Assembly (NCBI GenBank): GCA_003249785.1
Contig: QKIB01000047.1
Location: 1-43,919, forward strand
Source: Acholeplasmatales bacterium
Lineage (GTDB): Bacteria > Bacillota_I > Bacilli_A > Acholeplasmatales > Acholeplasmataceae
Reading direction: 5' to 3'
DNA length: 43,919 nt
The notes beneath the pieces are model-generated. The model worked only from the letters and a program-made list of their open reading frames with translations. It was not told the DNA's origin and ran no database searches. How positions within the stretch are numbered: the first letter of the stretch is position 1; the number at the start of each line of letters is the position of its first letter. Positions 673-9,642 of the stretch are shown here, piece by piece. A program made the position numbers and the translations under genes.

Positions 673-873
673 ATTAATTTTAGACATCATCGCAAATATT
701 CTTATAATTTATGATTTGTATGCATATACAACCTGCAAAGTTTTCAGAAATGTTATAATAATTACAAACAACCTTGTTCAGTTGAAGTGTTTTGCATTTC
801 AAATCCTTTTTCGTATGTTATAATTTAGGTGTATTTTTTAATTTTATGTAATAAAGTTACTTGGAGGAGCGCT

Positions 874-2043
874 ATGTTAGAGATTCTAAGCCGTATACAG
901 TTTGCATTTACTGTTGCATTTCATTTTTTATTTGTTCCATTCACGATTGGACTTGTCCTGTTCATGCTCATTTTCGAGCACGTTTATTATAAAACAGATG
1001 ACTTGAGATATAAGAAGTTGTCTGATTTTTTCGGAAACATCTTTATTATCAATTATGCTTTTGGTATTGTGACAGGCATCGTCATGACCGTGCAATTCGG
1101 AACGAACTGGGCTGAGTATTCCAGAGCGATGGGCGATGTATTCGGTTCTCCACTGGTCATTGAAGCACTCTTAGCCTTTTTCTTGGAGGCAACTTTCAGT
1201 GGGATTTGGGCATTCAGAAAGAATAAGATCAGTAAAACATTCAGAGTCGTTACGGTTTGGATGATTTTCATTGGTGTCTTACTTTCTGCTTTATGGATTA
1301 TTTCAGCCAATGGCTTTATGCAGAATCCAGTAGGAGCAACCTGGCTACCAGATGAAGGCCGTGTGATCTTCTCCAGTTTCAGCGAATTGATTTTCAATCC
1401 TTATTCATGGTACATGTTCTTGCATACGAATTTGGCTTCCATTCTATTGACCGGATTTATCGTTCTAGCGATTTCTATGTATCACATACAAAAGAATCAT
1501 CATGCAGATACCTTCAAGATTAGTGCAAAGATTGCTGCTTGGGTCATTTTGATTTCTTCGATTTTAATGCCAATCACTGGTTATGTCTATATGAACTTTA
1601 TTGCAGGTGTTCAACCTGATAAACTCAATATGATCAATAATGGTCTTTCAAGTTCACCTGATATCAGTGCTGGATTGCCGATTGTGGTCAAGACGGCATT
1701 CCATACAATGACTATTTTGGGATCGATATTTATCTTGTTTGGTTTGTATCTGGTACTTTTCAGAAATAAGATCAACGATTCACCTACACTTAAGAAGATT
1801 ACTTATTACATGATTCCACTTCCTTATATTGCAATTATCACAGGGTGGATGGTTACCGAAATGGGCCGTCAGCCATGGATTATCTATAATATGATGAAAG
1901 TCAGTGAAGGTATTTCATCTGTACCTGTATCGCAAGTCTGGTTCAGCATCATCTTGCTTGTTGTCTTCTATGTCTTGCTGTTCTTCATGGACTACTATTT
2001 GTCACTGAAAACCATCAGAAAAGGTTTTGAAGGAGAATTCTAA
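874..2043 (+). CDS. cydA: Cytochrome bd-type oxidase subunit I, with shortened Q-loop
   Basis: RIQFAFTVAFHFLFVPFTIGL (heme b595 His), FGSPLVIEALLAFFLEATF, WYMFLHTNLAS (heme b558 His) and GRQPW motifs. ATG at 874 has GGAGG upstream; the ORF start at 829 lacks one. Confidence 0.93.
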   Translation: MLEILSRIQFAFTVAFHFLFVPFTIGLVLFMLIFEHVYYKTDDLRYKKLSDFFGNIFIINYAFGIVTGIVMTVQFGTNWAEYSRAMGDVFGSPLVIEALLAFFLEATFSGIWAFRKNKISKTFRVVTVWMIFIGVLLSALWIISANGFMQNPVGATWLPDEGRVIFSSFSELIFNPYSWYMFLHTNLASILLTGFIVLAISMYHIQKNHHADTFKISAKIAAWVILISSILMPITGYVYMNFIAGVQPDKLNMINNGLSSSPDISAGLPIVVKTAFHTMTILGSIFILFGLYLVLFRNKINDSPTLKKITYYMIPLPYIAIITGWMVTEMGRQPWIIYNMMKVSEGISSVPVSQVWFSIILLVVFYVLLFFMDYYLSLKTIRKGFEGEF

Positions 2044-3062
2044 TGCACGAAACTCTAGGAATCATCGCGTTCGGTTTGATTGGACTATCTTATTTGATTT
2101 ATCTCGTTCAAGAGATTCCAATCATTGGCGTAGGGATCTTAAATATCTTTATTGCCTCAACAAATGAAGAAAAAAAGAAGTTGCAATCGATTGCTGGACT
2201 TTACTCTGATGGTGTTGAAGTTTGGTTGATTGTTGCAGTTGGTTTGACATTTGCAGCATTTCCTTTGGCATTCGGACAAATCTTCAGTGGTATTTATGTT
2301 CCTGCATTTTTACTTCTGATTGCATTGATCTTTAGAGGGTTGAGCGTCGAATTGCTTTTTAAGGATGATACACCCAAATGGATCAAATACATGAGCTTGG
2401 CTTGGAGTATTTCAGGCATGCTTTTGATGTTTGTATTGGGTGTCTATTTTGTGACTCTTTTTTACGGATTCCCTTATGAAAATGGTTCGATGGGATCCAA
2501 CATCTTTTCAATCTTCTCAACAGCAACCATTAGTGGTGGCTTATTGATGATTGCCCTCGCGTTCATTATTGGTGCAGTCTGGATTAAGTTCAATCGTTTG
2601 ACAGAACTTGCTGATAAAGCATTTAACTTGATCAAAAAGTATGGCATCATCTATTCTGTTCCTTTGCTGTTTGCATTGGTTCTGATGGGTATTAACAACA
2701 ATCTTGTTTCCATTATTTCCGGACAATTATTTGTTGCACATCCTTATTTGATTGCTTTACCGCTAGCTAGTCTGTTTTTCTTAATATTAGTCACTGGCTT
2801 TGGACACTTTAAGAAACCAGCATTCATTTATGTTTCATTCCTTTTAGGGATGATCTTGTTCTTTGTCAGTGGTTTTCTAGGCACATATCCTTATGTCCTT
2901 TTTTCACATGTCGCATTTAATGAAGGCATCTTGATCTATGATGCGATGTCATCGGAGACTGCACTAGTCGTGATGGGGGTTGTCATTCTTATTGTGCTTC
3001 CAATCGTGCTTTTATATCAAGGATATAAATATGTTTATTTCTTTAGAAAGGATCAAGAGTAA
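2043..3062 (+). CDS. cydB: Cytochrome bd-type oxidase subunit II
   Basis: Polytopic membrane protein immediately downstream of and overlapping cydA; CydB-like start MHETLGIIAFGLIGLSYLIYLVQE. Confidence 0.88.
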   Translation: MHETLGIIAFGLIGLSYLIYLVQEIPIIGVGILNIFIASTNEEKKKLQSIAGLYSDGVEVWLIVAVGLTFAAFPLAFGQIFSGIYVPAFLLLIALIFRGLSVELLFKDDTPKWIKYMSLAWSISGMLLMFVLGVYFVTLFYGFPYENGSMGSNIFSIFSTATISGGLLMIALAFIIGAVWIKFNRLTELADKAFNLIKKYGIIYSVPLLFALVLMGINNNLVSIISGQLFVAHPYLIALPLASLFFLILVTGFGHFKKPAFIYVSFLLGMILFFVSGFLGTYPYVLFSHVAFNEGILIYDAMSSETALVVMGVVILIVLPIVLLYQGYKYVYFFRKDQE

Positions 3063-3064
3063 AC

Positions 3065-4564
3065 ATGGATATACAAACAAATCGGTTTGATCGCACAACC
3101 TTGGTTGATGCTAAAACATTGAAGTTCATAGAAAAAGCACTGTTCATCATTGTTTCATACTTGGTATTGATGACGATTTTTCAGCAAGGCTTTATCTTTG
3201 GGGTTCAACAAGCTTTTAACGTTTTCGTGATAGTTACGATTGTTAGAGAAGTGGAAATTCTGTTTTATGCAAGTGAGAAGAAGTTGCATCGTGCAGAAGC
3301 TAAAGCATTTGTCCAGTCAGATTATGCGAAGATTACTGCATTATCAATGGGTATCTTAATACCTTCCAACACACCAGTTGTTTTGGTGTTGATTGTCGCT
3401 GGATTATCAGTGTTCATTGCAAAGATTTTATTTGGCGGGTATGTCTACAAGGTGTTCTCACCAGCACTCTTTAGTTATTTGCTCATTCAATTGGGATTTA
3501 AAAATGCAATTGGAGCATCCACATTCGATAATCAATTGTTTACCGCATTATCCAACACGAATCTATTTTCTAAATATTTGAATTTCTCGATTAATTATGA
3601 CTTTTCCAGTGGATTTGGTCTTGCTATATCCAGTGGAATCTTCATTTTTGGTCTGATTGCTTTTATCTTGATCATCAAACACTTTAAGCAAGCGTTATTA
3701 CCTGTTCTTTTTGTTTCAACTTACGTGATTGGTTATTTGGCTATTCTTGGATCCTCTGGATTCTATGAAAGTTTCATGAGTGTACCTTTCTGGTTTGTGA
3801 CGGTCTTTATTTTATTCGATCGTACACTCATACCTACAGGTCGTACAGGACAAGTCCTTGCAGCACTTTTATTGTCTGTGATGATGGTTATCTTCCATGC
3901 AGTCGGACAAACAGAAGCCGTTGTTTTTGGTGCACTGTCAGTCCAAATGCTCACACCATTTATTAATCAGTGCAAATGGATTACATCCGAGGATGGAACC
4001 GATCAAGGTCATCAAGCATCAACATTCAAGAAATCCATGAATTATCTTCTGGTTGTTTTAGTGCTTGCCGTCGGCATTCAATTAGCATGGCAGCATTATG
4101 GTCCAATGATTGGTGTACCTAAGGTTGATGTCATGCAATATTTAACTGATACCTATGATCCTGCAAATTATACACAGAATTTAACACCAACCAGAGATTA
4201 TAATGTTGGTCAATATCAAACCATCAAAGGTGTTTATGAAATTTTGAATAATTCGGATTCATCAATTGCTGGAATTGTTTATGATATTGTGACAGAAGGT
4301 CGAAATGGTCCAATTCATATTGTCATAGCGATCGATCCTTATACAGATACCATTGTTAATTATGTCGTTGTTTCACAGAGTGAAACAGAAGGGGTCGGAG
4401 CCCTTTATACGGAACCTAATGTCATTAACGCAATCATTAATGAACAAATCAGTAACTTCAATATCGACAAGATTGCTGGAGCTACCATTACATGGGATGC
4501 TTTGGAGCAAATGATCAGTGATGTTGTAGCGAATTATACGAATGAGGGGGTGAGCCTCAAATGA
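3065..4564 (+). CDS. Fusion protein: NqrB/RnfD-like membrane domain plus C-terminal NqrC/RnfG-like FMN-binding domain
   Basis: N-terminal polytopic domain alignable by eye with the 317-aa NqrB/RnfD at 5797 (IFGGYVYKVFSPALFSYLL vs VFGGLGRNIFNPALVGYLF). C-terminal GPIHIVIAID...ETEGVGA...DKIAGATIT resembles the RnfG/NqrC FMN-binding domain. Confidence 0.82.
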   Translation: MDIQTNRFDRTTLVDAKTLKFIEKALFIIVSYLVLMTIFQQGFIFGVQQAFNVFVIVTIVREVEILFYASEKKLHRAEAKAFVQSDYAKITALSMGILIPSNTPVVLVLIVAGLSVFIAKILFGGYVYKVFSPALFSYLLIQLGFKNAIGASTFDNQLFTALSNTNLFSKYLNFSINYDFSSGFGLAISSGIFIFGLIAFILIIKHFKQALLPVLFVSTYVIGYLAILGSSGFYESFMSVPFWFVTVFILFDRTLIPTGRTGQVLAALLLSVMMVIFHAVGQTEAVVFGALSVQMLTPFINQCKWITSEDGTDQGHQASTFKKSMNYLLVVLVLAVGIQLAWQHYGPMIGVPKVDVMQYLTDTYDPANYTQNLTPTRDYNVGQYQTIKGVYEILNNSDSSIAGIVYDIVTEGRNGPIHIVIAIDPYTDTIVNYVVVSQSETEGVGALYTEPNVINAIINEQISNFNIDKIAGATITWDALEQMISDVVANYTNEGVSLK

Positions 4565-5187
4565 TGAACGATTTCAAAAATGAAATGAAAGATATTCTGA
4601 ATCAAGGTGTCATCAAGCGCAATCCAGCATTCGTTCTAACAATTGCATTAACTCCGATGCTTGCTGTCACAGATTCCATGGATAAAGCCATCAGTTTGGG
4701 ATTGACGGTCTTGTTTGTCATGATTCTAGTCAATTTTGTTGTTTCCATCTTTAAATCAAAGATTTCTGATACCGTGATGCCAATCTTCACATTGGCGATT
4801 GTTGCATTCTTTGTTTCAGTTGCACAGATGATTGTTCAAGTGCGCAACTTAGAACTCTATCAGAACTTAGGGATTTATCTGCCACTCACTGCAGTCAGTG
4901 CTCTAGTTTTGCAAAGAGCTCTAGCTTATTCAAAAGAAAACAATGTCATCAAGAGTGTCGTTGATGGATTTGCATATGGTGCAGGCTATTTGTTTGCTTT
5001 AATAATCATTACCATTGTGCGTGTTATCATCAGCACTGGAAGTATCACATTGTTTGGTATTCCCATGCGTTTATTTGATACGATCTATTCATTTGATCTT
5101 GCAACATCAGCATTTGGTGCCTTGCTCATTGTAGGCTTGCTTTTAGGCATCTTCAAATCCTTTCAGCAAAGAGGTGAATCCAAATGA
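4561..5187 (+). CDS. NqrD/RnfE-like membrane subunit, paralogue lacking the [2Fe-2S] cysteines
   Basis: Alignable with the 205-aa NqrD/RnfE at 7352 (NPAFVLTIALTPMLAVTDSMDKAISLGL vs NPVFVAALGLCSALAISNTVENAIAMGL); contains no Cys. Confidence 0.82.
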   Translation: MMNDFKNEMKDILNQGVIKRNPAFVLTIALTPMLAVTDSMDKAISLGLTVLFVMILVNFVVSIFKSKISDTVMPIFTLAIVAFFVSVAQMIVQVRNLELYQNLGIYLPLTAVSALVLQRALAYSKENNVIKSVVDGFAYGAGYLFALIIITIVRVIISTGSITLFGIPMRLFDTIYSFDLATSAFGALLIVGLLLGIFKSFQQRGESK

Positions 5188-5786
5188 TTGAATTTACAAC
5201 TTTAGCGCAATTGATTGTTGCGACCATCTTAATCAACAATATCTTGTTGTTTTCATTCCTTGGAATAGAATCACTACCTACCGTTGAACAGAAGCCTAAG
5301 CATGCTTTGAAATTAAGTGTTGCTCTGCTCTTTGTTTTGCCACTGGTCAGTGTCATCAGTTATCTCATTTATCATGGACTGCTTTATAAAGTCAATGATA
5401 CAGGAGATGTCATTAAGAATTTGACGTATCTTCAAACGTTTGTGTTTGTGATCACGATTTCAATCGTTGTCGTCATGTTCAATGTCTTCATCAAGAAGAT
5501 CTTTCCTAAGTTTTATGCATACATTGGCAAGTACACCATTGAACTGGTTGCCAATACCGTTGTCTTAGGTGCCTTACTCATTAATATCGCGAGTGTTGAT
5601 ACACTGGCTAATAGTTTTTATTTCAGTATTTTCGCGGCATTTGGTTATGGACTCATTTTGATGATTTTAACCTTCATCGAAAAGCATCTGAAAGATGCAC
5701 CAGTCCCCAAAGGATTCAAAGGATTGCCTATGCAACTCATTATCCTTTCAATCATTGCCCTGATCCTTTTTGGATTGAATGTTTAG
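5184..5786 (+). CDS. NqrE/RnfA-like membrane subunit, paralogue lacking the [2Fe-2S] cysteines
   Basis: Alignable with the 189-aa NqrE/RnfA at 7981 (INNILLFSFLGIESL vs SNNIALTLILGMCPL; VANTVVLG vs TVNCVVLA); contains no Cys. Confidence 0.82.
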   Translation: MIEFTTLAQLIVATILINNILLFSFLGIESLPTVEQKPKHALKLSVALLFVLPLVSVISYLIYHGLLYKVNDTGDVIKNLTYLQTFVFVITISIVVVMFNVFIKKIFPKFYAYIGKYTIELVANTVVLGALLINIASVDTLANSFYFSIFAAFGYGLILMILTFIEKHLKDAPVPKGFKGLPMQLIILSIIALILFGLNV

Positions 5787-5796
5787 GAGGAAAAAG

Positions 5797-6732
5797 ATGC
5801 AAAAAAATGGAACGAACCCACAAGAATTAAATCAGAAAAACCCAGGTGTGTCGTATAGAAACCTCCTGATCATGTCGGTTTTGATGTTTGCACTGCTTTT
5901 GGTTGGGGCATTTGTCTATACCTTTTATGTCTTACTCATGGGGGCTGTTGCTGTAGCAACTGCACTCTTGGTTGAGTTTGCATTTGCTAAAATCAGAAAA
6001 ATTGAATATGGTAAAGATATTTATGGGGCATTTGTGACGCCACTCATCTTTACTTTGCTCATGCCACCTCATCTGCCTTTATATATGGTTGTTGTTGGCT
6101 CTGGGTTTGCCGTATTCTTCGGCAAGAGCGTCTTTGGTGGTTTAGGCAGAAACATCTTTAATCCAGCACTGGTGGGGTATTTGTTTTTGCTGGTAACTTT
6201 TCCGGTTGAAGTCGGACAATCATTTATTGATCCACTGACTGGAACGGTTTTACAATCTACCAATTTGGCTGATTTGACATTTACAGGAACAACACAGCAT
6301 ATCTTTGGCTTATTGCTTGGACAATATGCCAATACCATAGGATCAACCGTGATGTTAGGCGTGTGGATCGTCGGTGCAATTTTGTTGTTCTTGAAAATTG
6401 CCGATTGGCGTATTCCACTCACTGTTTTACTATCATCTGTTGTCTTTACTTATGTATTAGGTAGATTCTATCCTTCACAATTCCATGATGCCTTCATTTC
6501 ATTGTTCTTAGGACAATTGATGTTTGCTGCATTCTTTGTTGCAACAGATCCTATATCTGGACCACAGACATCAAGAGCAAAAATCTTTTATGCGATTGGG
6601 ATTGCCTTGATCACTGTTGTGATCAGAGGCTTAGCTGATGCGGCAGAAGGTGTGGTTTATGCCATCATCATTATGAATGCTGTTTCACCTATGTTAGAGA
6701 AGAGTCCTAAAAAGGAGGATGAAGTCGTATGA
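5797..6732 (+). CDS. NqrB/RnfD family membrane subunit
   Basis: Multi-TM protein with FFGKSVFGGLGRNIFNPALVGY and IADWRIPL motifs, and a candidate FMN-Thr in QSTNLADL. AGGAGG precedes ATG 5797. Confidence 0.88.
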   Translation: MQKNGTNPQELNQKNPGVSYRNLLIMSVLMFALLLVGAFVYTFYVLLMGAVAVATALLVEFAFAKIRKIEYGKDIYGAFVTPLIFTLLMPPHLPLYMVVVGSGFAVFFGKSVFGGLGRNIFNPALVGYLFLLVTFPVEVGQSFIDPLTGTVLQSTNLADLTFTGTTQHIFGLLLGQYANTIGSTVMLGVWIVGAILLFLKIADWRIPLTVLLSSVVFTYVLGRFYPSQFHDAFISLFLGQLMFAAFFVATDPISGPQTSRAKIFYAIGIALITVVIRGLADAAEGVVYAIIIMNAVSPMLEKSPKKEDEVV

Positions 6733-7355
6733 AAAACTACATTCGATTAGTCGTCTTCGTCGCAATCTTGGGATTCATCACATCGCTTGCATTCGTCGGA
6801 ATGGACTTGCTGTTTTCAGCAAGAATCACTGCCAACGAAAATGCAGCATTGTATGAAGCGATCTTATCGCATAACAACGAAACCTATACAACTTCAACAG
6901 TTTTTGATGCATTCACAACCAATATCACAGTTCACGATTACACCATCCATGGACAGGATGTTAAGATTTATGTCGACAACAATACCAACAATATTTCATT
7001 TGTCTTTGGTATCTTTGCTGCGAGTGGTTACATCGGCGATATCGTTGGTGTCATGACAATGGAAAGTGACTTTGAAACGATTGTGAATATCACCATCCTT
7101 CAACAGGGAGAAACTCCAGGGTTGGGTGGTAAAGTCGTTCAAAGAGACTTTCTGGATCAGTTTGTCGGACTCAAAGTTGACCCGACATCACAAACTCCAA
7201 TCATCATTGGACCTTTGGGTTCAACCGGTAATTTACCCAATGAAGTCGATCAGATTGCTGGTGCTACCAACACATCAAATGGATTTGAAAACATTCTAAA
7301 CGAAAGTTATTTTATTTATAAAGGACTCTGGGAAAATGGAGGTCAGTCATCATGA
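6729..7355 (+). CDS. NqrC/RnfG family FMN-binding subunit
   Basis: N-terminal TM; GETPGLGGKV and flavinylation-type motif DQIAGATNTS. Confidence 0.9.
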   Translation: MKNYIRLVVFVAILGFITSLAFVGMDLLFSARITANENAALYEAILSHNNETYTTSTVFDAFTTNITVHDYTIHGQDVKIYVDNNTNNISFVFGIFAASGYIGDIVGVMTMESDFETIVNITILQQGETPGLGGKVVQRDFLDQFVGLKVDPTSQTPIIIGPLGSTGNLPNEVDQIAGATNTSNGFENILNESYFIYKGLWENGGQSS

Positions 7356-7969
7356 AATTAATTCGTGTAAAATATACCAAATGGTTTAATATCATCAAGA
7401 GTGGTATGAAAACCAGCAATCCAGTTTTTGTTGCAGCGCTTGGTTTATGTAGTGCACTTGCAATCAGTAACACCGTTGAAAATGCGATTGCGATGGGTCT
7501 TGGTGTGACCTTTGTTACGATGATCAGCTCGATGTTTATTTCGATGTTTAGAAATTTCATTCCTGCAAAGCTGAGAATCGTTACCTACATGGTTATTATT
7601 TCAACCTTTACCATCTTTGTTGAAAAGTTTTTACAAGCTTATTATCCTAGCATCTACAGTGCGCTCGGTGCTTATGTAGGGCTTATCATTACCAACTGTA
7701 TCGTCATGGGACGTGCTGAAGCGTTTGCCGTTAAGAATCCATGGAGATACTCCATCATTGATGGATTTGCAAGTGGTATGGGGTATACGTTTGTTCTTGT
7801 GTTGGTTGCTTTGATTCGTGAACCTTTGGCATTTGGTACCATTTTAGGTTATCAAGTGATGCCAGCTGGTTTCACAACATGGGCATCCATGAAGATTGCT
7901 CCAGGCGGATTCTTTATCTTAGGTATCATGATATGGATTCTAAGAAGCTGGGCAAAATCTTATGAATAG
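7352..7969 (+). CDS. NqrD/RnfE family membrane subunit (canonical cysteines)
   Basis: NPVFVAALGLCSALAIS and GLIITNCIVMGRAEAFA motifs. Confidence 0.92.
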   Translation: MKLIRVKYTKWFNIIKSGMKTSNPVFVAALGLCSALAISNTVENAIAMGLGVTFVTMISSMFISMFRNFIPAKLRIVTYMVIISTFTIFVEKFLQAYYPSIYSALGAYVGLIITNCIVMGRAEAFAVKNPWRYSIIDGFASGMGYTFVLVLVALIREPLAFGTILGYQVMPAGFTTWASMKIAPGGFFILGIMIWILRSWAKSYE

Positions 7970-7980
7970 GAGAGATCAAC

Positions 7981-8550
7981 ATGTTACAATTACTCATTAG
8001 CTCCATCTTAAGCAATAATATTGCTTTAACCCTAATTCTAGGGATGTGTCCACTGATTGCGATATCAACCAATGTCAAGAATGCTAGAGGCATGGGGATT
8101 GCTGTCGTGCTGGTCGTTACCATCACAGCAGTGATCAATTATCCAATCTACCAGTTGCTCAAAGCAACCGGTACAGAGGACATCAGCTTGTTGGTTTTCA
8201 TCATTACGATTGCTGCAACTGTTCAGATTTTAGAAATCTTACTTGAAAAATATATTCCATCACTTTATTCAGCATTTGGTATTTACTTACCACTGATTAC
8301 CGTCAACTGTGTTGTGCTTGCTGTCAGTTTGTTCTTTGTCAATAGAGAATACAATTATGGACAAACCGCAGTCTTCGCATTTGGATCATCCGTAGGGTGG
8401 TTATTAGCGATTGTCTTGGTTGCATCCATTCGTGAAAAACTGGCAGTTTATGGCAATTTACCCAAAGGTCTCAGAGGGAAAGCCATTGTCTTTATGATTT
8501 TAGGTATTTTGGCACTTGCTTTTGCCGGATTCAAAGGTTTAGCATTCTAG
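7981..8550 (+). CDS. NqrE/RnfA family membrane subunit (canonical cysteines)
   Basis: SNNIALTLILGMCPLIAIS and IYLPLITVNCVVL motifs. Confidence 0.92.
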   Translation: MLQLLISSILSNNIALTLILGMCPLIAISTNVKNARGMGIAVVLVVTITAVINYPIYQLLKATGTEDISLLVFIITIAATVQILEILLEKYIPSLYSAFGIYLPLITVNCVVLAVSLFFVNREYNYGQTAVFAFGSSVGWLLAIVLVASIREKLAVYGNLPKGLRGKAIVFMILGILALAFAGFKGLAF

Positions 8551-8562
8551 GAGGGTGACAGT

Positions 8563-9642
8563 ATGTATGTGTTTTTACCATTGATCATTTTAGGAGTTCT
8601 CCTTTTGATCACGGGCATTTTAATCTTGCTTGACTATATCTTTGGCGGCAGCGCTGAAAAAACAATCATCCTAAATGGTGATACTGAACTTGTTGTTACC
8701 GGAGATGATACCGTTCTATCCACCTTATCACAAAACCAGATTTTCATTCCATCTGCTTGTGGTGGTAAAGCAACCTGCGGGCTATGTAAGTTTCATATGG
8801 AAGGCGATGTGCCACCGGTCAAGCCAACGGAAGAACCTTTTTTGACGAACAGTGAAATCGAAGAAGGTATCCGCTTATCATGCCAAGTCAAAGTCAAAGA
8901 CAAGATGAAGATTTTATTACCCCCAGGCTTGCTTACTGCAAAGGAATTTCATTCAGAAGTCACTGAAATCGAAGAACTTACATATGATATCAAACGTGTT
9001 CGTTTTGAATTAAAGTCACCAAATCATGTAGAATTTAAACCTGGACAGTTCATGCAAATCAAAGTACCTGGGATTGATGTCATTCGTGCGTATTCACTCG
9101 CATCAGATCCAGCGCATACTGATTATGTTGAAATGCTGATTCGTCTTGTCCCAAAGGGACAGGCTACAACTTATGTCCATAAAGCACTTCAAGTTGGTGA
9201 TAAAGCGATTTTGATTGGTCCATTTGGCGAATTCTATTTGCGTGAAGCATCAGATCGTCCGATTGTTTGTATTGCTGGTGGTTCAGGAAAAGCGCCAATT
9301 CGATCGATTTTATTCAGACTTAAGGCGTTGGGTATGCCAAGAAAAGTCAAATATTTCTTTGGTGCGAAATCTGTCAAGGACTTATATTACACAGAAGAAT
9401 TCATGGAACTGCAAAAAGAATTCCCGAATTTTGAATATATTCCTGCTTTATCTGCACCTGATGAAAGCGACAACTGGAAAGGTGAAGTCGGATTGATCAC
9501 AGATGTCCTTGATCGTCATTCTGGAGATTTATCCGGTGCTGAAGCTTATCTTTGTGGGTCACCAGGGATGATTAATGCATGTATTAATGTTTTGAATAAG
9601 CATCAGATCAAGACAGAAAACGTTTATTACGATAAATTCTGA
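8563..9642 (+). CDS. nqrF: NqrF-like NADH-oxidising subunit (TM + [2Fe-2S] ferredoxin + FAD/NAD domains)
   Basis: SACGGKATCGLCKF...LSCQ 2Fe-2S motif, IRAYSLAS FAD motif, AGGSGKAPIRSILF, YLCGSPGM; N-terminal TM. Confidence 0.92.
   Translation: MYVFLPLIILGVLLLITGILILLDYIFGGSAEKTIILNGDTELVVTGDDTVLSTLSQNQIFIPSACGGKATCGLCKFHMEGDVPPVKPTEEPFLTNSEIEEGIRLSCQVKVKDKMKILLPPGLLTAKEFHSEVTEIEELTYDIKRVRFELKSPNHVEFKPGQFMQIKVPGIDVIRAYSLASDPAHTDYVEMLIRLVPKGQATTYVHKALQVGDKAILIGPFGEFYLREASDRPIVCIAGGSGKAPIRSILFRLKALGMPRKVKYFFGAKSVKDLYYTEEFMELQKEFPNFEYIPALSAPDESDNWKGEVGLITDVLDRHSGDLSGAEAYLCGSPGMINACINVLNKHQIKTENVYYDKF

Follow-up and report, generated by a model that had tools for sequence, protein, structure and literature searches.

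A cytochrome bd operon with two Rnf/Nqr-type modules

The contig QKIB01000047.1 of an Acholeplasmatales bacterium (43,919 nucleotides; hereafter the window) carries the genes of a cytochrome bd oxidase followed by two membrane modules of the Rnf/Nqr type, set 1 and set 2, which an earlier note made from the sequence alone had singled out. We observed that ten genes form one operon (874–9642) in the order cydA, cydB, set 1 D-G, E and A, set 2 B/D, C/G, D/E and E/A, and nqrF (Table 1). Neighboring genes mostly overlap by 1–8 bases and are otherwise separated by gaps of at most 12 bases, and the reading frames of both sets are open where the earlier note had placed them. The cydAB and nqrF genes lie beyond the coordinates covered by that note (3065–8550). 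NqrF is predicted to be the electron input from NADH, and together with set 2 it makes up an NqrB, C, D, E and F complement with [2Fe-2S] ligands and an NADH module. The nqrA gene is absent from the operon, whose genes are the scope of this search (the remaining genome was not searched for NqrA). Neither RnfB nor RnfC is encoded in the operon, and the RnfB of this genome sits with a separate rnf cluster on contig 90. Searching for CydC and CydD yielded only generic ABC matches, below the cut-off.

Table 1. Features of the cydAB–set 1–set 2–nqrF operon in the window
Feature	Position	Strand	Evidence or remark
Sigma-70-like promoter TAGACA-16-TATAAT	681..708	+	Consensus scan 11/12, best match of the region, upstream of cydA; pattern match only, use not implied
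cydA, cytochrome bd subunit I, 389 amino acids	874..2043	+	Pfam PF01654 2e-116
CydA Q-loop junction, residues 250-279	nt 1621-1710	+	Loop lost, heme ligands kept
cydB, cytochrome bd subunit II	2043..3062	+	PF02322 3.3e-52; TIGR00203 over cut-off
Set 1 RnfD-RnfG fusion	3065..4564	+	PF03116 2.2e-17, PF04205 1.6e-10, motif, hydropathy
Set 1 RnfE/NqrD-like, T31 and A114 for cluster cysteines, no Cys	4561..5187	+	Alignments
Set 1 RnfA/NqrE-like, E29 and T125 for cluster cysteines, no Cys	5184..5786	+	Alignments
Set 2 NqrB/RnfD-like, degenerate FMN-Thr motif QSTNL	5779..6732	+	PF03116 2.6e-70, alignment
Set 2 NqrC/RnfG-like, FMN motif AGATNTS at amino acid 177	6729..7355	+	PF04205 1.8e-14, motif
Set 2 NqrD/RnfE-like, ligands C33 and C116 kept	7352..7969	+	Alignment
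Set 2 NqrE/RnfA-like, ligands C23 and C110 kept	7981..8550	+	Alignment
nqrF: N-terminal transmembrane segment, 2Fe-2S ferredoxin domain, FAD and NAD domains	8563..9642	+	PF00111, PF00970, PF00175; TIGR01941 2.7e-72

Loss of the cluster cysteines in set 1

The RnfE/NqrD-like (E) and RnfA/NqrE-like (A) proteins of both sets all belong to PF02508 (Rnf-Nqr), and those of set 1 match this family over the cut-off (1.4e-36 and 1e-23). The four ligands of the [2Fe-2S] cluster that the earlier note had proposed in set 2 were confirmed by cysteine counts and alignment: C33 and C116 are the only cysteines of E, and C23 and C110 the only ones of A. The corresponding residues named for set 1 (T31 and A114 in E, E29 and T125 in A) indeed fall on the cluster cysteines, with no nearby gaps, in phmmer alignments to solved RnfE/NqrD and RnfA/NqrE chains (9eri, 7zc6, 8ahx, 7xk3). 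We then extended the comparison to 21 RnfE/NqrD-type and 21 RnfA/NqrE-type sequences (eight set-2-type, five cyd-linked, five from other Rnf operons and set 1 of three species), and the ligand columns remained unchanged. Every sequence outside set 1 presents a cysteine at these columns, except for one truncated sequence with no residue at one of them, and all four cysteines are missing only in the set 1 proteins of the three species. These carry Thr plus Ala or Gly in E, and Glu plus Thr in A in all three species. Ligands located elsewhere in set 1 E or A were rejected, as both proteins are devoid of any cysteine.

The Glu that occupies a former cluster position of A is invariant in the three species, which raises the possibility that set 1 E and A constitute an ion-translocating unit, conformationally coupled to the flavin or the oxidase, with E29 (and T31/T125) as ion site and with set 2 NqrC feeding CydAB. 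Na+ has been suggested to pass through RnfA-E in A. woodii (review PMC12174285), and set 1 A is under strong purifying selection (see below). However, E presents no conserved acidic residue at the position matching E29, and the two proteins hold no redox cofactor to drive ion movement. The linkage to cydAB and the flavin mononucleotide (FMN) domain fused to D fit an electron relay better, and we regard ion translocation as unlikely, though deserving some weight.

Predicted covalent flavins of set 1

The first gene of set 1 encodes an RnfD/NqrB-like membrane domain (D) followed by an extra transmembrane segment (amino acids 323–343) and a PF04205 FMN_bind domain (amino acids 412–487). The FMN-attachment motif AGATITW is kept in this G domain at amino acid 471. 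RnfD has ten membrane helices (PMC12174285) and, with one extra transmembrane segment, the flavin domain of set 1 would thus be extracytosolic. FMN_bind domains with GAT motifs number one per fusion in the window species, three in G014 and four in G009, the two relatives in which we also found set 1. At least two FMN_bind domains with a GA[ST] motif, which is how we defined a multi-flavin protein, are therefore present in G014 and G009, and the window species has one. ApbE is encoded in 12 of 12 genomes tested. The earlier note had described set 1 as a cofactor-free copy of the electron-crossing module. The cluster ligands are indeed gone from E and A, but the module as a whole is not cofactor-free because its D-G fusion retains one to four predicted covalent-FMN domains; judging from its motifs, set 1 would lack only the cluster and the D-type flavin.

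In the alignment, the FMN-Thr motif is missing in both set 1 D and the D of cyd-linked Rnf. In set 2 D, it is degenerate in the three species with cyd genes (QSTNL in the window, QSIGI/QSISI in the two relatives) and kept as GATPL or ATPL in the cyd-minus relatives G013, G018, G004 and G026. Losing this Thr in cyd-associated proteins is what would be expected if the outer flavins feed CydA and no electrons return through D. NQR/RNF-like systems with a proposed one-way outward flow also lack the Thr of D (PMC11334425; PMC8238504).

A CydA without its Q-loop

All bd oxidases are described as having a Q-loop, in which conserved Lys and Glu take part in quinol binding and oxidation; the loop covers the periplasmic side of CydA and adjoins heme b558 (PMC8951039). 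Aligned to solved bd oxidases, the window CydA presents about 22 residues where E. coli bd-II has about 133, and it aligns elsewhere. The Q-loop segment is 30 amino acids long, with the Lys kept and the Glu lost, and the equivalents of the heme ligands H19/H186/M393/E445/E99/E107 (b558/b595/d) are kept. In the AlphaFold2 model of this CydA (pLDDT 88.7; pTM 0.89), a linker of 12 residues joins a short helix to transmembrane helix 7 in place of the loop, and the fold matches bd oxidases with template modeling scores of 0.86–0.92, the best PDB match being bd-II (0.92).

The segment between Lys252 and Met393 spans 19–30 amino acids in 10 of 10 Mollicute genomes, whereas it spans 74–112 amino acids in 78 of 80 CydAs of other phyla among the matches listed from a CydA profile scan. 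The matches listed are mostly ordinary CydAs, with no named relative of the Mollicute type among them. The main alignment has eight Mollicute rows, and in each of them Asn, Thr, Gln or Ser stands in place of the quinol-site Glu257; G090 retains the Glu. Two actinobacterial CydA-like proteins of 386–395 amino acids (L153, L161), with no rnf genes nearby, are also without a Q-loop (segment of 12–14 amino acids).

Distribution and selection

Set 1 was detected in 3 of 20 congeneric genomes (the window genome, G014 and G009), which share the operon cydAB-set1-set2-nqrF. The search for the same doubled operon that the earlier note had suggested was thus positive in two other genomes. Searching 61 relatives with PF01654 detected cydA in three genomes, precisely those that carry set 1. 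In the other congeners whose operon was read, set 2 and nqrF are located elsewhere, without cydAB. The earlier note had considered that absence of set 1 from close relatives would speak against its view; such absence was observed in 17 of the 20 congeners, but the same 17 also lack cydA.

This distribution bears on another explanation of the fusion, in which set 1 is an outward multi-flavin relay to external acceptors and its proximity to cydAB reflects co-regulation only. Such a role would suit the one to four FMN domains, and proteins bearing several flavins have been linked to extracellular electron transfer (PMC8238504; PMC10339131). Set 1 and cydA nevertheless co-occur perfectly, within one operon of overlapping or near-adjacent genes, and cyd-minus congeners are without set 1; we find this explanation improbable.

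We further estimated the ratio of nonsynonymous to synonymous substitution rates (dN/dS) between G014 and G009, for which dS is at or below approximately 1. The values for set 1 are 0.13 (E), 0.075 (A) and 0.17 (D), those for set 2 are 0.06, 0.04 and 0.10, and cydA presents 0.07. Set 1 is under purifying selection, with a constraint somewhat weaker than that of set 2. The open frames in three species and the dN/dS of E and A agree with the earlier view of an intact and selected set 1 with its gene order kept, and a pseudogene or frameshift was rejected on the basis of the open frames in three assemblies and of dN/dS. A decaying relic would explain the lost cofactor ligands and the long branches of set 1. 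With dN/dS of 0.075–0.17, open frames in three species and multiplied FMN domains, decay is very hard to believe.

Ancestry of set 1

We searched the set 1 D profile over 397 genomes of the class. This led to family f16 (G129, G287, G104 and G071), with a weaker match in G061 (family f6). The five genomes, from two families, possess cydA-cydB-rnfD-rnfG-rnfE-rnfA and a short rnfB, no rnfC, and the four cysteines are kept. Set 1 D clusters with the D of this cyd-linked Rnf (support 91/93 and 89/85), with an FDN signature common to the f16 members and a GAT-x-TW flavin motif common to most. A clade uniting set 1 and set 2 D is rejected by the approximately unbiased (AU) test (p=0.0026), and so is joining set 1 to its conspecific set 2 (p=0.0002). 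The D tree thus rejects the origin assumed in the earlier note, in which set 1 is a tandem duplicate of set 2. These results indicate that set 1 descends from a cyd-linked Rnf module that still bears its cysteines in other Mollicutes. This ancestry is based on D, gene order and shared motifs, as the position of set 1 is not settled by the E and A trees.

The Cys-containing cyd-linked Rnf of other Mollicutes probably still delivers electrons to CydAB by itself. In the simplest history, the NqrF-driven set 2 would have been added to a cyd-linked Rnf with its cluster, after which set 1 would have lost RnfB and the cluster, followed by fusion of D and G and multiplication of the FMN domains. The crossing cluster and RnfB of set 1 may have become redundant because set 2 and NqrF, beside it, took over the crossing.

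Cys-bearing Rnf-cydAB operons with a Q-loop-less cydA were observed in other Mollicute families (L076, L077, L078, L079, L083 and L170); in G062 (L170), cydAB lies 3' of an rnf/nuo-like cluster. The Rnf-cydAB operons of these families are possibly the ancestral quinone-free system. A ferric-reductase-like membrane protein of 208–217 amino acids (PF01794, weak) is encoded directly upstream of cydA in L076:6970-7605, L079:5439-6065 and L170:9786-10439. The f16 operons have one, and the window's genus does not.

Quinone and heme supply

No UbiA-type prenyltransferase was found over the cut-off in the 61 relatives, nor in six other genomes whose cydA lies beside rnf genes (G071, G104, G129, G287, G061 and G062), while 14 of 14 controls were positive. 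The one cydA genome with a UbiA match is G090, whose cydAB has no rnf gene nearby and whose CydA keeps Glu257, with a loop that is short too. Quinones were undetectable in a cultured representative of the Acholeplasmataceae (PMC11122141). Ferrochelatase was not found in any of the 14 genomes tested, so heme must be imported. In cyd-minus Mollicutes (L030, L031, L034, L035 and L036), NqrBCDEF is encoded without nqrA in a UbiA-less genome.

Imported heme lends some plausibility to an ordinary NQR-type chain running on environmental quinone, in which CydAB oxidizes the quinol at a different site, with set 1 serving as an accessory stabilizer. Indeed, mycobacterial bd may accept quinol at a site remote from the Q-loop (PMC8951039). 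Yet the Q-loop is gone and Glu257 lost, the operon is without NqrA, and the NqrB-type quinone path depends on an FMN for which set 2 D has a degenerate Thr motif in the species with cyd genes. Considering also the undetectable quinones of the cultured relative, we judge such a chain to be distinctly unlikely.

A candidate quinone-free respiratory chain

Our results suggest that the ten genes probably encode one quinone-free NADH:O2 respiratory chain with set 1 as an adaptor. In its complete form, for which we see somewhat better than even chances, an NADH-driven NQR core would pass electrons to covalent flavins on the outer face and from there to a Q-loop-less cytochrome bd, the whole being held by a cluster-less module derived from Rnf. 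The cluster-bearing Rnf beside cydAB in other Mollicute families would be a simpler version of it. NqrF would oxidize NADH, and the [2Fe-2S] cluster of set 2 NqrD/NqrE would carry the electrons to the outer face and reduce the FMN of set 2 NqrC. The electrons would then pass laterally along the outer face to the C-terminal covalent FMN domain(s) of the set 1 fusion, which would reduce heme b558 of CydA, and CydAB would reduce O2. Set 1 would be a docking and relay adaptor, the remnant of an Rnf that once fed CydAB alone: its RnfB input and crossing cluster would have been lost, and its CydAB-docking D, E and A and its output-flavin G kept. The parts with their ligands, their co-occurrence, ancestry and selection are observed, and from there on we infer the physical docking, the flavin-to-heme transfer, the direction of flow and what set 1 E and A do structurally. 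The earlier note had suggested a structural, ion-translocating or adaptor role for set 1; the adaptor is the role favored here, and the ion-translocating one is retained as the unlikely alternative described above.

A flavin protein at -184 mV would reduce a bd heme easily. This potential was measured for a multi-FMN protein (PMC10339131). The step from flavin to heme b558 is topologically and energetically plausible because the flavins would stand on the same side as the Q-loop and b558, and because of the potential of that multi-FMN protein.

Several points weigh against this chain. Direct contact between flavin and heme b558 is unproven, and quinones could be imported, as heme must be. The fusion of the window has a single FMN domain, so that a multi-flavin relay is dispensable. 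The location of E29 in the membrane center could point to ion conduction instead of a purely structural function. Finally, the D tree support (91/93 and 89/85) is not maximal, and in the E and A trees set 1 sits on very long branches, with no placement given.

The operon departs from two definitions in a correlated way: cytochrome bd as a quinol oxidase, and the RNF/NQR membrane core as the bearer of an intramembrane cluster for carrying electrons across. There is a realistic chance that it represents a new kind of respiratory chain. If so, covalent flavins would take the place of the quinone pool, which would explain O2 respiration by quinone-less Mollicutes, and a natural Cys-free RnfA/E pair would make the disputed role in ion translocation separable from electron transfer.

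Comparison with known systems

The RNF complex (RnfABCDGE; Clostridium, Acetobacterium, Azotobacter) resembles set 1 in that D, G, E and A occur in operon order and match the same fold families. In contrast, set 1 lacks RnfB, RnfC, the A/E [2Fe-2S] ligands and the D FMN-Thr, its D and G are fused, and it is linked to cydAB. Set 2 with NqrF corresponds to subunits B, C, D, E and F of the Na+-translocating NADH:quinone oxidoreductase (Na+-NQR; NqrABCDEF), and set 2 D and E score best against NqrD and NqrE. In contrast to Na+-NQR, nqrA is lacking from the operon and UbiA from the genome, and the FMN-Thr motif of B is degenerate in the species with cyd genes. The NQR/RNF-like one-way systems (Meheust 2021; Huang 2024) share an NqrB/RnfD-like subunit without the flavinylation Thr and a proposed one-way flow from NAD(P)H to extracytosolic FMN; they consist, however, of two subunits, with no NqrD/E pair, and no link to cytochrome bd was found in the available portions of these two reports.

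Compared with cytochromes bd of the S and L types, CydA and CydB of the window have all heme ligands, but the Mollicute Q-loop is essentially deleted (19–30 amino acids) and the quinol Glu lost. Multi-flavinylated FMN_bind proteins (SaFMN3, FMN4; 8p2b) have tandem covalent-FMN domains, and the set 1 domain presents a phmmer match to 8p2b, although here it is fused to an Rnf membrane subunit. A cytochrome bd and two Rnf complexes have been reported in Ca. Izimaplasma (Skennerton 2016, cited in PMC6256511; PMC7761423, PMC8397711), and its Rnf is probably the Cys-bearing cyd-linked Rnf seen here in other families. However, PMC8397711 ties its cytochrome bd to the quinone pool, and the accessible text mentions neither loss of the Q-loop nor an Rnf-cyd operon. 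A literature search that covered few subscription papers brought up neither an Rnf-cydAB operon nor a Cys-less RnfA/E.

Other features of the window and genome

Next to the operon, window:9718-11301 encodes a 527-amino-acid secreted protein with a C-terminal membrane anchor and no Pfam family, and a protein of like size and start is also located 3' of nqrF in G014 and G009 (L028, L029). A BspA-type LRR_5 protein with an N-terminal zinc-ribbon-like segment is found at window:23441-25561. On contig 90 of the same genome (L002:2130-2691), a canonical rnfA is split across two frames, by either a frameshift or an assembly error.

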